This document shows, in pieces, positions 13,323 to 18,565 of a stretch of DNA of 64,000 nt. The stretch's first letter is position 1. Every line of letters begins with the position of its first letter. The translations under genes were made by a program, and so were the position numbers. This stretch comes from Synechococcales cyanobacterium GL140_1_metabat_312. Lineage in GTDB: Bacteria > Cyanobacteriota > Cyanobacteriia > Leptolyngbyales > Leptolyngbyaceae. The notes beneath the pieces were generated by a model. It saw only the letters and a list, made by a program, of their open reading frames with translations. It had not been told where the DNA came from and searched no databases. The stretch is taken from NCBI GenBank assembly GCA_025351345.1, contig JANXWB010000071.1, forward strand, positions 1 through 64,000, given 5' to 3'.

Positions 13323-14477
13323 ATGCCCGACATGAACAAACCCCTGAACTTTCGTTTTGCTGTTTTAAGTGATCTCCACATCGCTCTAGCGGACACCGTG
13401 TGGCAAAATCCCGCTCGAATTCATCTGGTCGAAGTCGGAATTCCAGCCTTAGAGGTAGCTCTCGATCGGATTGCCCAAGAGGATATTGATTTTCTATTGG
13501 TGCCCGGTGATTTGACACAACACGGCGAAGCAGCAAACCACGCTTGGATTTCGGAACGTTTTGCGCGGCTTCCCTACCCGGTGTATGTGATTCCCGGAAA
13601 TCATGACATTCCAGTCCTAGAGGCAAATGAGCAATCGATCGCCGCCGATGAATTCCCTGGCTTTTATCGCAGGTTTGGCTACGAAGATACTAGTCATCAC
13701 TATTACACTCACAAAATATTACCCGGTGTACGGTTGATTGGCTTGAATTCCAACACCTTTGATGGGAATGGAGGGCAAATCGGGAGAATGGACGAGGCTC
13801 AGTTGGACTGGCTGCGTCTAACGTTGTCTAAGGCTCAGGCTGCGGAGGATGATCTGGTGATGGTCATGATTCATCATAATGTTCTCGAACATCTGCCCCA
13901 CCAATCGACTCAAGGGATAGGTCAGCGTTACATGCTGGAAAATGCCTCCGAGCTATTGGGCATTCTGCGGGCCTACAACGTCAATATGGTGTTCACGGGG
14001 CATCTTCACATTCAAGATGTGGCTTACCAAGACGGCATCTACGACATCACGACGGGTTCGTTAATTAGCTATCCTCATCCCTTCCGCGTGTTCGAGTACC
14101 AAACCGATCGATACAACCGTCGTTGGTTGCAAATGGAATCTCACCATGTGGAATCAGTACCAGGCTGGGAAAATCTCCAACAGCAAACCCGTGAACTTAT
14201 GGGCGATCGGGGCGAGTCCTACATTCTGCAATTATTGACGCAAGCACCCTTGAATTTATCCGAAGCCAAAGCAAAAGAATTAGTGCCGAGTTTACGTTAC
14301 TTCTGGGCGGCGGTAGCGGAAGGGGATGCGGTGTTTAACTTCTCAGAGTTTCCAGAAAGGGCCAGAGAATACTTTGAATCCTTCGGGACGACCAGTGCTA
14401 TTGATAACCGAGCTTTGTTTCCCATGGGTGAAGACCGATCGGGTTTTCGAGAATGCCTGGTAAGTACTGCGAGATAG
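13323..14477 (+). CDS. Calcineurin-like metallophosphoesterase
   Basis: A 384-residue protein with the full binuclear-metal motif set: SDLHIA (16-21), PGDLTQHG (about 60-67), GNHD (about 97-100), MIHHNV and GHLHIQD. This is the icc/CpdA-like branch of phosphodiesterases. There is no signal peptide, so it is probably cytoplasmic. The substrate cannot be assigned; cyclic nucleotides or phosphomonoesters are possible. It is convergent with the alkaline phosphatase gene across a hairpin at 14481-14519. Confidence 0.88.
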   Translation: MPDMNKPLNFRFAVLSDLHIALADTVWQNPARIHLVEVGIPALEVALDRIAQEDIDFLLVPGDLTQHGEAANHAWISERFARLPYPVYVIPGNHDIPVLEANEQSIAADEFPGFYRRFGYEDTSHHYYTHKILPGVRLIGLNSNTFDGNGGQIGRMDEAQLDWLRLTLSKAQAAEDDLVMVMIHHNVLEHLPHQSTQGIGQRYMLENASELLGILRAYNVNMVFTGHLHIQDVAYQDGIYDITTGSLISYPHPFRVFEYQTDRYNRRWLQMESHHVESVPGWENLQQQTRELMGDRGESYILQLLTQAPLNLSEAKAKELVPSLRYFWAAVAEGDAVFNFSEFPERAREYFESFGTTSAIDNRALFPMGEDRSGFRECLVSTAR

Positions 14478-14527: not shown

Positions 14528-16528
14528 CTACCCTTTCAGCGCTTCCAACATCGCCTTATAAATGTGAGATTGATCAACGGCTGTAGGAACACCGGGAATC
14601 TTGTAGGATTTGCTGACACCACCAGGAGGATTGTCCACAAATTCTACGGGTTTGCCGATGTACTTCGATAGCTTGAATTTATCACCTTGATAGTAGACAG
14701 GAACCATGCGGTTTGTGTGGCTTCCCCAACCGTACTTCACGTCAGGTTCAGACCCGAAGAAGTGTCCTGCCTCTTTGGGAGTGTGTTTTGCGTAGGTCAG
14801 CGCTTCTGCACCGTTGGCCTTCAGCAATTTACGGAAATTGCTATTGAGGGTCAGATAGTGATCGTGATCTGCCGTGACAATCAATACATTCTTTTTCCAG
14901 CCGCCATTGTTCTCAATCCAGTCGATCGTGGTTTGGACTGCATCATCGAAGGAGAACATCGTCCCGATCAAGTTATCCATGTTGTCATCATGGAGGGACC
15001 AATCCACATCACCGCCCTCAACCATCAGCCAGAACCCATCTTTGTCCTTGCCTAGAACATTAAGCGCAGCTTGAGTCATTTCTGACAGCGTTGGATTCGC
15101 TTTAACTTCTTTAGCAATAAACTGCGCTGGGGTTTCATCTTGACCGTTTTCGATGCCCTTGACCAAAGGACGAATCGTATCTGGTTTGGGGACTTGGGGA
15201 CCATTGCTGGTTGCGCTACTTCCGGCTGCTGCGGTGGCATAGAGATTGAAGGCATCTAAGCCTGTGGCACTGTAGTCACGATTTGCGGTCAAGAAGGGCA
15301 GGTTTCCGTTTTGTCCCCGTGCGCCATACAAGCCCAGCAGACGATCGCCTTTATTTGGATTTAAAGTGAGGGATTTGGCGAGTAACTCGTCTCCCCCATC
15401 TTTGATCTTACTCAAATCATTGGTAGAGGTGACGTTGCCATCGCGCTCTAGGAAGGTATATCCGTAGGGATTGTTGGGGTTGGACTTCAGTCTATTGTAA
15501 GTAGACTTCTTGATATACGTATAACCACTATCCGCAGGTTGAACTGTACTTTGACTAGTCGTATTTTGGAAATCCAAAGGATGGCCGCCGCCGAGAAGCA
15601 CAGTGGGCAAGAATCTTCTAACGTCTGGACGATCGGGACTATTGCGATCGGGCAAATCAGCGCGAATCGCCTGTTGTAAGACGCTATCGAGCAACGGTAA
15701 ATCGCTATCGTACTTACTGCGACGGTTAACGCTAGAAACCGCAGCACCAGGAGTTGCATGAGTCAGGGGCACTGATGAAATAACGCCCGTAGACTTTCCC
15801 AATCTGCTAGCGGTCTGCAAGATAGTCTCTACGGAGGCTTTCTCGTAGATATCAACGCTCATGGCATTGTTATAGCTTTTTACACCTGTATAGAGCGCAG
15901 ATGCTGTGTTGGCAGAGTCGGGATAGCTACATTTGATGTATTCCTTATCGTAGTTACCTGCGGTTGCAGGGGATAGAGGTGTCCAAGGATCTGGACCTCC
16001 TTTTGCAGGTTCATAACCAACGATGTTGCCGCCATTCCCGATCGTTCCTGCACCGTTTTGGCAAGGAGTGCTTGCGGTACCTTGGGGATTAGATTTCGCA
16101 GAACCAGGGTTCAGTGTAGGGTTAAAGGTAAATCCTGGGCGAACCGGGCTTTTGCCAGTGATAGGATCTGAGCCAGTGAGAGCAGAGTTCCCAGTCCCGT
16201 AAGTCAACGCAGGATTCGTGGTGCTGACTGGAGCGGGAACGGTTGTCCCGTATGTAGTTGCGTAGGTATAGCCGCTTAGGGTTTGCATACTCAAACCACT
16301 GCCTTCTCCCTCGGTGTAGGGGCGACCTCCTTTTGCGATGGCTGCCGCCCGTGCAGCCTGCCATCCCATGCCGTCACCGATCATTAAAATGACATTAACG
16401 CCCTTGTCTTTGCCTGCTGCATCAGCCGAGGACATTCCGATCGGGGAGAGTAGAAAAGCAAACGTGTAAAACATACCCAGCAGTCCAGATAAGACTCTTC
16501 TGCTGATGTTTGAAAATAGTTGAATCAT
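14528..16528 (-). CDS. Alkaline phosphatase, PhoA superfamily, exported
   Basis: A 666-residue phosphatase with an N-terminal signal sequence (about 1-38). Metal site LMIGDGMGWQAARAAA (about 48-63), nucleophile region D-S-A-N-T-A-S (about 204-210), EGGDVDWSLHDDN and TADHDH match the two-zinc alkaline phosphatase fold. It hydrolyses phosphomonoesters in the periplasm to free phosphate. At 666 residues it is longer than E. coli PhoA; extra loops lie between about 95 and 195. It is last in a minus-strand run after two small exported proteins and a CDF transporter. No convincing PHO box was found. Confidence 0.92.
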   Translation of the reverse strand: MIQLFSNISRRVLSGLLGMFYTFAFLLSPIGMSSADAAGKDKGVNVILMIGDGMGWQAARAAAIAKGGRPYTEGEGSGLSMQTLSGYTYATTYGTTVPAPVSTTNPALTYGTGNSALTGSDPITGKSPVRPGFTFNPTLNPGSAKSNPQGTASTPCQNGAGTIGNGGNIVGYEPAKGGPDPWTPLSPATAGNYDKEYIKCSYPDSANTASALYTGVKSYNNAMSVDIYEKASVETILQTASRLGKSTGVISSVPLTHATPGAAVSSVNRRSKYDSDLPLLDSVLQQAIRADLPDRNSPDRPDVRRFLPTVLLGGGHPLDFQNTTSQSTVQPADSGYTYIKKSTYNRLKSNPNNPYGYTFLERDGNVTSTNDLSKIKDGGDELLAKSLTLNPNKGDRLLGLYGARGQNGNLPFLTANRDYSATGLDAFNLYATAAAGSSATSNGPQVPKPDTIRPLVKGIENGQDETPAQFIAKEVKANPTLSEMTQAALNVLGKDKDGFWLMVEGGDVDWSLHDDNMDNLIGTMFSFDDAVQTTIDWIENNGGWKKNVLIVTADHDHYLTLNSNFRKLLKANGAEALTYAKHTPKEAGHFFGSEPDVKYGWGSHTNRMVPVYYQGDKFKLSKYIGKPVEFVDNPPGGVSKSYKIPGVPTAVDQSHIYKAMLEALKG

Positions 16529-16567: not shown

Positions 16568-16813
16568 TTACTGATAGAAATTCGGTTCTTGGTGCGTTAA
16601 CGAAGGGGATGAATTCATCGCCATTGTCGTCAACTCTGTGATGTCACCCTGCTGGAGTTGAAAGCTAGAAGCATCGGGGGAAGATATTGCACTTTGGGCC
16701 ACTAATGGCAGTGCAATTACACTCAAAAGTCCGATCGTAAACATTAAGAAGGCTTGAACCCAAGCTCTCTGCAAAAATATGGGTAGGTCCGATCGTTGCA
16801 AAAGGTGAAACAT
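16568..16813 (-). CDS. Small exported or membrane-anchored protein ending in EPNFYQ
   Basis: An 81-residue protein with a hydrophobic segment (about 19-42, ending PLVAQSA), which is a signal peptide or anchor, and a short polar tail. Its last residues, LTHQEPNFYQ, closely match the C-terminus of the next gene upstream (LTDREPNFYR). It lies 39 bp before alkaline phosphatase on the same strand. I do not recognise the family. Shared C-terminus and position suggest a role linked to the neighbouring phosphatase, but this is inference. Confidence 0.6.
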   Translation of the reverse strand: MFHLLQRSDLPIFLQRAWVQAFLMFTIGLLSVIALPLVAQSAISSPDASSFQLQQGDITELTTMAMNSSPSLTHQEPNFYQ

Positions 16814-16897
16814 AAGAATTCCTCAATGTAAAGTGATTATCTGAGAAGCAAGGGAATGAAAAGTAGGCGTTTAGATCTTCCAGACCAACTGTTTCAC

Positions 16898-17350
16898 TTA
16901 ACGATAGAAGTTAGGTTCTCGGTCGGTGAGCCTGTCTCGAATAGGTATAGAAGGTGTAGCAATGATAGTGGGTTGTACATAGCGTTTTGGAATTGATCGA
17001 TCGAATCCGAGTAGTGTTTTAGCACCTCCTGGTTGTTTGGCCCAAACCGTAACACTTGGCTGGCGCGTCCAGTTCTCTCTTGTAACGCTGAGAAATAGGA
17101 CCGGGATAATTTGCCCTTGTTGTTCGCCAGAAATATTGATTTTGACCTCACTAATTTGCGGGTCACTAAAAGATTGATTAGCACTGTTCTGTGCGATCGA
17201 TTCTGCTTTTTGTTGCAAGCTTTCAAAGGTCATTAATCCCTCACTAATGACATCAAATTGATAGGCCACTAGACGCATTTTAGCCTCAACCCGAGGTACG
17301 ATCGTGGCCCCCAGAACTGAAGTTATAAGCAAGGGAAATAGGCTTTTCAT
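16898..17350 (-). CDS. Small exported protein ending in EPNFYR
   Basis: About 150 residues from ATG 17350, which gives a clean signal peptide (MKSLFPLLITSVLGATIVPRVEA). The mature domain is beta-rich (SEVKINISGEQQG, PVLFLSVTRENW, PSVTVWAKQPGG) and ends LTDREPNFYR, echoing the next small protein. The open frame extends upstream to 17389, overlapping the CDF gene, but that start would spoil the signal peptide. It lies 13 bp after the CDF stop codon. Function unknown. Confidence 0.65.
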   Translation of the reverse strand: MKSLFPLLITSVLGATIVPRVEAKMRLVAYQFDVISEGLMTFESLQQKAESIAQNSANQSFSDPQISEVKINISGEQQGQIIPVLFLSVTRENWTRQPSVTVWAKQPGGAKTLLGFDRSIPKRYVQPTIIATPSIPIRDRLTDREPNFYR

Positions 17351-17363
17351 AGCTATACCAAAA

Positions 17364-18386
17364 TTAGGGACTATATAGAACCTGATCAATCAAACTCTGC
17401 TTAAAAATTGGATGAACCTCACGTGATATTGGAAGTAAAAAGCTTGAGATTTCAATCATTACTTCTTGAATCTGAAAGTTTTGGCTGAGTTTAGATTTAA
17501 GATGTCTTAATAAATGGTCCCGATCGGAACTATCTAAGTCTGATTTGACCTGGATTTTGAGACAGAGAACAGTCGTCTCTTGAGTAAGAGACCAAATCTG
17601 CAACGTCTCTATCTTTTCCACATTCGGAAAGTCTGCAATGAATTGATGAATCTCCTGTAAATTTAATGATTTCGGGGCATATTGCAGGAGAACATCAAGG
17701 CTTTCCTTGATTAGAGGAATCGCGCTCAGAAGTGTTAAACCTGCCACCATGAATCCGATACAGGTATCAATCCAAAAACAGTGCCAGAGATGAATACTAA
17801 TTCCTGCAATCAGCGCACCAATAGAACCGACAAAATCAGAAGCAACATGTAAAACTACTGCTCTCAGACTTAGGTTGTCTCGACCACTTTTGCTGAGTGT
17901 AATCAGGGTAAAGCCGTTGACAAGTAAACCCACGATCGATCCACAAAGCATAGGAATGCTCAAAATATCCTGAGGCATCTGCCAGCGGGAGAGGCTTTCA
18001 TGAATAATCCAAACAGAAATTCCAAGCAGACTTAGACCGTTTAAGAATGCAGCCATAATCTCTAGTCGATGATGACCAAACGTTGCCCGATCGTCAGCAG
18101 GGTTTCGCGTTAAAGTTAATGCCAATAACGTTATTCCCAATGCAAAAACATCCGAGAACAAATGACCAGCATCAGCTTGGAGAGTCAAGCTTCCACTCCA
18201 ATGTCCAACCATCCACTGACTTAAACAGAAAATTGTAACGACTACTAGAGAGGTTCTAACAGCTTGCAATTTTTGATCGGGATTACTGTCAGGATTACTA
18301 TTAATAGAATGCCGTACACCACAAAAACAGGATGGCATCAAGAATGTATTAAAGCTCATCCATGAGTTTTGACTCATAACTGTCAT
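17364..18386 (-). CDS. Cation diffusion facilitator (zinc/cobalt/cadmium exporter family)
   Basis: A 340-residue CDF protein with six predicted membrane segments. TM2 has the metal site ADAGHLFSD (H-x-x-x-D) and TM5 the matching HVASD, the tetrahedral zinc site of ZitB/YiiP-type exporters. A C-terminal cytoplasmic domain (about 250-330) follows. It exports divalent metal in exchange for protons. It heads the run leading to alkaline phosphatase, itself a zinc enzyme. A Fur-like box lies about 180 bp upstream. The exact start among the first few Met codons is uncertain. Confidence 0.9.
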   Translation of the reverse strand: MTVMSQNSWMSFNTFLMPSCFCGVRHSINSNPDSNPDQKLQAVRTSLVVVTIFCLSQWMVGHWSGSLTLQADAGHLFSDVFALGITLLALTLTRNPADDRATFGHHRLEIMAAFLNGLSLLGISVWIIHESLSRWQMPQDILSIPMLCGSIVGLLVNGFTLITLSKSGRDNLSLRAVVLHVASDFVGSIGALIAGISIHLWHCFWIDTCIGFMVAGLTLLSAIPLIKESLDVLLQYAPKSLNLQEIHQFIADFPNVEKIETLQIWSLTQETTVLCLKIQVKSDLDSSDRDHLLRHLKSKLSQNFQIQEVMIEISSFLLPISREVHPIFKQSLIDQVLYSP

Positions 18387-18565
18387 CGCATTACCACAAC
18401 AACTTTAGACTACTAATTATGCTGAGTGAACTAATCCTAAAAATTCAATTCTTAGCCTCTCAAGAATTTTTACAACAGTATCAAACCAAACCTAGAGTTT
18501 GCGTTAAGAGAAGATTAATTATAAGTAAATTAAAAGAGACATAAAGTATTAATTTTTTTAATTAA

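Follow-up and report, generated by a model that had tools for sequence, protein, structure and literature searches.

Why would two small proteins with unlike bodies end in almost the same peptide, side by side and next to an alkaline phosphatase? The question is raised by a contig of Synechococcales cyanobacterium GL140_1_metabat_312, of which a stretch of 64,000 nucleotides (hereafter the window) was analysed. Its minus strand carries, in order of transcription, a CDF exporter, protein B, protein A and a PhoA-type phosphatase. The first gene (17,364–18,386, minus strand) encodes a CDF-type cation efflux transporter that matches PF01545 (E 2.6e-39; 135.5 bits for a cut-off of 26.6) together with PF16916. 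Protein B (16,898–17,350, minus strand), 150 residues long from the ATG at 17,350, is predicted to consist of a leader, a beta-alpha-beta-beta domain (folded core at about residues 23–115; 17,006–17,284, minus strand), a flexible linker and a tail, LTDREPNFYR, at 16,901–16,930 (minus strand; protein end RLTDREPNFYR), which was compared in an alignment with 21 relatives. Protein A (16,568–16,813, minus strand) has 81 residues, in which a hydrophobic leader or membrane anchor (about residues 1–45; 16,679–16,813, minus strand) and a short linker precede the HQEPNFYQ tail; the last ten residues of the protein, LTHQEPNFYQ, are encoded at 16,571–16,600 (minus strand; protein end SLTHQEPNFYQ). The phosphatase, proposed here as the partner of the tails, follows at 14,528–16,528 (minus strand) and matches PF00245 (E 2e-46; 159.3 bits for a cut-off of 24.4). 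Its AF2 model, built from an alignment of 34 sequences and used only for fold confirmation, has the alkaline phosphatases PhoA of E. coli and Klebsiella as best Foldseek matches. End to end with the phosphatase gene, and converging with it, lies a plus-strand ORF (13,323–14,477), which we take to encode a metallophosphoesterase-like protein.

A sequence-only reading of this DNA had described adjacent proteins of 81 and about 150 residues, alike at their ends and otherwise unlike, between a metal exporter and a phosphatase. Coordinates, protein ends and Pfam matches all bear this description out: seven of the last ten residues of A and B are identical while their bodies look unlike. Both proteins are probably exported, judging from leader-like N-termini read by eye. 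In the libraries scanned, no Pfam or NCBIfam family scored above its curated cut-off for A (window and L052) or for B (window, L048, L063, L106, L143 and L164). One origin put forward for the shared end, a duplicated exon-like segment, is not supported by comparison of the coding DNA. EPNFY is encoded by GAACCGAATTTCTAT in A and by GAACCTAACTTCTAT in B, and since these codons differ at synonymous sites the tail is not a recent DNA copy. Moreover, in two related genomes (G007 and G023), B is encoded away from the phosphatase locus and still ends in EPNYYDNP, three residues past the tyrosine. Neither operon copying nor control over translation of the following gene easily accounts for a tail retained in trans.

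The tail of A is conserved at the peptide level. A scan of 84,980 species for HxEPNFYQ followed by a stop codon returned 18 stretches, 17 in cyanobacterial contigs and one in Clostridia, and the same phosphatase lies downstream on the same strand in 17 of the 17 cyanobacterial contigs. None of the conditions that the sequence-only reading had named as refuting it (a random position of the motif, a lack of genomic association, its absence elsewhere) held. The match in Clostridia, where the 7.8 kb contain no phosphatase, was discarded as chance. Viral contigs gave no HxEPNFYQ-stop match, and three plasmid records carry the phosphatase. With looser pattern limits, 33 A loci were gathered, 32 of them with a CDF gene upstream (the exception being L050, from G088). 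Among the 32 non-redundant A proteins, the tail histidine, asparagine and last tyrosine are invariant (32/32), the glutamate is present in 30 (alanine in two), the proline in 27 and the phenylalanine in 31 (tyrosine in one).

Outside the tail, little of A is retained. A congeneric version (L002) is 88% identical, and in distant relatives from other genera the leader pattern and the tail are nearly all that is left in common, the hydrophobic stretch having one invariant phenylalanine and one glycine at 94%, and the linker varying in both length and sequence. The similarity is above chance, for the tail persists from genus to genus in an A that otherwise diverges. In addition, nine tails showed eight different codings of EPNFY, and this variation at synonymous sites indicates selection on the peptide. 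When the pattern was relaxed to E[PA]NF[YF], 24 matches appeared, spread over 21 of 386 genomes. Nine of them, from six genomes, are the ends of A or B proteins; the remaining 15 close either a frame no longer than 25 residues or no frame at all, and were rejected as chance. In the loci read, the tail motif was not found inside the phosphatase protein itself. A single residue follows the tyrosine in 29 of the 32 A proteins and two or three in the remaining three; across A and B, zero to three residues do so (the tyrosine is the last residue of B in L057), the final residue being Q, N, R, S, D, K, Y or P. Each of the three stop codons is used after the tail, and the A stop lies 25–366 nt from the phosphatase match.

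The association was also examined from the phosphatase side, with loci chosen without the motif. With the phosphatase as query, 46 of the 388 genomes searched in the class matched at E <= 1e-60. Of these, 21 have a tail-bearing A, 22 lack both A and a CDF gene upstream, and three have no readable upstream DNA (G575 is cut by a contig end; in G589 and G590 the gene stands at the contig start). In one phosphatase clade, A is present at 21 of 21 loci with readable upstream DNA, versus 0 of 22 in the sister clade. Similarly, in a tree of 51 phosphatases, the 31 tail rows (20 from the phosphatase-first genomes, 11 from pattern scans only) and the 20 no-tail rows form the two sides of one branch (support 100/99); L134, L129, L065 and L136, partial or odd, were left out, and L105 is without the start motif. 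This split could represent one ancestral event, afterwards retained, and no tail loss was seen in the tail clade. Only five positions (P187, S265, D319, N322 and K546) are conserved in tail-clade phosphatases and rare in the other clade (30 tail versus 20 no-tail rows), so that no dedicated pocket stands out. Many no-tail-clade phosphatases (L118, L121–L127, L130, L132 and L133) have a MAKNVI-like start, no leader and longer C-termini, which suggests a different export route.

Protein B belongs to a larger family, in which a profile search found relatives in 49 of 96 genomes. At the 30 best B loci, 31 B-family ORFs were read: four end in EPN[FY]Y, five in [FY]RDD, three in SDLD and 19 in none of these, the DPGYR end of L141 being scored as no tail. 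A phosphatase is in the locus of 9 of the 12 tailed ORFs versus 0 of the 19 untailed ones (p = 1.1e-5, an optimistic value, some rows such as L164 and L165 being close kin). Seen from the neighbourhood, the three tails are absent in 19 of the 22 B relatives without a phosphatase neighbour. In a weakly resolved tree of 61 B cores (94 columns), 27 of the 29 no-tail rows fall on one side of a branch (support 99/95) and all tailed rows on the opposite side, where EPNFY and RDD rows are intermixed. Parsimony gives seven changes each (bootstrap 6–7 and 6–8), and the well-supported branches force only one tail change; several tail switches in this family are likely, as judged from this tree. L148, a B relative on the tailed side, ends in EDSFEYR, perhaps yet another tail. 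Away from phosphatases, L221, L222, L228, L159 and L163 share a further conserved C-terminus, ending in QRIPTPGNIGK, KRIPTPGDIGK or DRIPTPGTIGR. In some loci (L103, 1364–2113; L104, 1336–2085; L136, 1434–2165), a protein ending in PEPGT..., a hydrophobic stretch and arginine, presumably PEP-CTERM-like, is encoded between the CDF gene and B, and L101 (1955–2689) possibly holds another such PEPGT-ended, PEP-CTERM-like protein.

The other tails accompany another phosphatase, PhoX. DP[AG][FY]RDD followed by a stop codon was found in 11 of 388 genomes, each time as the C-terminus of a B-family protein. Five of these proteins (L167–L170 and L176) sit 175–575 nt upstream of PhoX; for five others the 1.5 kb read shows no adjacent PhoX, and L177 is cut by a contig end after 70 nt. 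PhoX is present in 15 of 15 genomes with B tails of the RDD type (14 end in RDD; G043 ends in DPGYR), at E <= 1e-140 in 14 of them and as a partial match of 63% identity in G516; in a general sample, which includes eight of these 15, the same query reached E <= 1e-80 in 16 of 145 genomes. [DE]YLSDLD followed by a stop codon was found in 5 of 213 genomes, in all five cases on B-family proteins directly upstream of PhoX of a second subfamily, in which the pairs compared share 66–100% identity, against 25–38% with the first PhoX. Both kinds match PF05787 (E 2.5e-65 to 3.7e-83 for the neighbours in L143, L151 and L164); PhoX distances in L151, L164 and L165 are counted from the start of the BLAST match, the genes themselves beginning nearer. 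One genome, G415, holds all three pairs: the EPNFYQ-tailed A precedes PhoA (L135), one B ending in DPGFRDD precedes PhoX 1 (L178) and another ending in DYLSDLD precedes PhoX 2 (L219). Tail type hence predicts the neighbouring phosphatase subfamily, with exceptions. Among the upstream ORFs listed for L178–L193, there is no A-type small protein with a PhoX tail.

The explanation that we favour, at roughly an even chance, is that A and B are companions of a phosphate-scavenging phosphatase, that their tail is a docking peptide for their own phosphatase and that the CDF transporter supplies metal. The tail, H-x-E-P-N-F-Y-x on A and x-E-P-N-F-Y-x on B, would dock onto the PhoA-type enzyme encoded by the next gene. 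Protein A, being little more than leader, flexible linker and tail, would hold or escort the phosphatase at the membrane or, if its leader is cut, might end as a small secreted peptide. In protein B, that tail would be displayed by a small folded domain able to reach another envelope site, and relatives of B would serve other phosphatases, DPxFRDD addressing PhoX subfamily 1 and YLSDLD PhoX subfamily 2. The CDF transporter would probably provide the metal needed by the exported enzyme. A docking peptide would explain most of the findings, including the leader-plus-tail build of A, B tails that switch with the neighbour and the three tails of G415. Several points were counted against it. The five clade-specific positions of the PhoA-type enzyme mark no dedicated pocket, and its link with the tail may go back to a single ancestral event and have been inherited since. 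Upstream of 26 of 30 PhoX genes the DNA read (up to 1.5 kb, less in three contig-end loci) contains no B, and of the 11 DPxFRDD proteins five are not by PhoX in the DNA read and one is cut by a contig end. Finally, A and B do not strictly change together, A ending in APNYYQ in G007 and in APNFYQ in its sister G023, which thus has NFY in A and NYY in B. More tentatively, and with somewhat less confidence, these proteins may represent a tail code of the cyanobacterial envelope, in which one B family carries exchangeable C-terminal peptides, one per phosphatase, and A is the domain-free membrane version in PhoA operons.

The AF2 model of B, based on an alignment of 22 B-family sequences, shows a strand-helix-strand-strand core at high confidence (block means of 81–97 over residues 21–120) and a tail of low confidence with no secondary structure. 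No reliable resemblance of the core to a solved structure was found, no Foldseek match reaching E <= 0.001; the best look-alike, a domain of the CamS sex-pheromone precursor (Z 6.3, rmsd 2.8, 86 residues, 4% identity), is below the reliable range. Regarding A, its first 45 residues resemble the leader of the phosphatase from the same genome in many Nostocales, with local scores up to 87 (L114) and 74 (L048) versus a shuffle 99th percentile of 33; ten of 33 loci score just 13 to 22. It is as if A had begun as a copy of the phosphatase start. An A-x-A triplet lies within residues 19–60 in 22 of the 32 A proteins, making a cleaved leader possible.

The sequence-only reading had offered a sorting, docking or processing tag. 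The first two parts fit a C-terminal peptide, conserved as such on exported-looking proteins and linked to the phosphatase locus in 17 of 17 cyanobacterial contigs; C-terminal processing is unlikely, given the varied last residue and the zero to three residues that follow the tyrosine. Between docking and sorting, a shared sorting tag is possible and would have the tails read by one envelope machine, for export, outer-membrane passage or attachment, phosphatase proximity reflecting operon sharing only. EPNFY and DPGFRDD indeed occupy the same columns of the B alignment with a common acidic-x-small-aromatic pattern, and the five of 11 DPxFRDD proteins not by PhoX in the DNA read point the same way. 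However, a single reader would have no need for the three tails of G415, each by its own phosphatase, and the absence of these tails from 19 of the 22 B relatives that lack a phosphatase neighbour is likewise at odds with it. We regard this alternative as unlikely.

An inhibitor or maturation role is also possible, and we hold it to be rather improbable: the tail would bind the phosphatase without tethering it, as a plug of the active site or as an aid in loading metal delivered by the CDF exporter. The exporter gene upstream of 32 of 33 A loci and the composition of the tails, acidic or histidine-containing and with aromatics, favour such a role, but the replacement of the tail glutamate by alanine in two of 32 A proteins indicates that a metal-binding glutamate is not essential. 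By analogy with SecM, an arrest peptide that acts on SecA translation, the tail might instead stall the nascent chain at its stop codon and tune translation of the phosphatase, an idea prompted by a short, exported-looking protein that has a conserved C-terminus and is encoded immediately before an exported enzyme. This seems very doubtful considering the 25–366 nt between the A stop and the phosphatase, the variable number of residues after the tyrosine, the use of all three stop codons and the tails retained by B genes off the phosphatase locus (G007 and G023). Equally far-fetched is the release of the tail from A and B precursors as a secreted signal peptide, which the leader-plus-short-peptide look of A and the CamS precursor domain as look-alike of the B core (Z 6.3, below the reliable range) might evoke, but which is countered by three tails matched to three phosphatase subfamilies and by the lack of constant cut-site residues before the conserved histidine of A.

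Returning to docking onto the phosphatase, its physiological setting would be phosphate starvation. In Nodularia spumigena, a phosphatase gene and a CDF gene form a pair in one annotated operon (904), which is strongly induced under phosphate starvation (PMC9846622). Values of 6.64 and 7.75 are given for nsp12920 (phosphatase) and of 7.14 and 4.97 for nsp12930 (CDF), which we took as log2 changes at two time points (PMC9846622). A Pho-box scan of the window gave no signal (seven matches versus 7.9 expected). The sole Pho-box-like site with one mismatch in the window lies just upstream of the CDF gene (18,516–18,534, minus strand).

Alkaline phosphatases govern cyanobacterial life on organic phosphorus, and the location of the enzyme sets who gains the freed phosphate. 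If real, the A and B companion set would give a handle on where these enzymes sit, whether membrane, periplasm, surface or medium, and the matched-tail reading would give a role to a family without a Pfam or NCBIfam model. Should the tails be address peptides, they would also offer short handles by which PhoA or PhoX could be linked to other proteins.

As enzymes, the two kinds are ordinary PF00245 and PF05787 members like those of the phosphate-starvation response; what would set them apart are the companions with matched tails, for which no earlier description was found in the literature searched, where the string EPNFYQ is also absent. Several known systems resemble these tails in part. Substrates of sortases, exosortases and the PEP-CTERM system carry a motif, then a hydrophobic segment, then a basic C-terminus; like them, A and B are exported-looking proteins with a C-terminal motif, and they do not belong with them, having no hydrophobic or basic end and only zero to three residues past the tyrosine. 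PDZ and Ctp tags require small or hydrophobic terminal residues that are invariant and keep a constant spacing from the carboxylate, which excludes the A and B tails with their varied last residue and zero to three residues after the tyrosine. SecM-like arrest peptides stall at a conserved motif, and a structured spacer separates them from the gene they regulate. Like SecM and VemP, A and B would be exported leader proteins upstream of an exported or export-related gene; unlike them, they lie at variable distances, and the tail also occurs on unlinked B and on a protein predicted to be folded. Encapsulin cargo-loading peptides, which are short C-terminal docking or targeting peptides, offer another comparison. 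The tails differ from them in that one exported family carries several enzyme-matched tails, in an extracytoplasmic setting and with no shell, and they share with them a handful of conserved residues, a flexible C-terminus, unlike carriers and one presumed partner.
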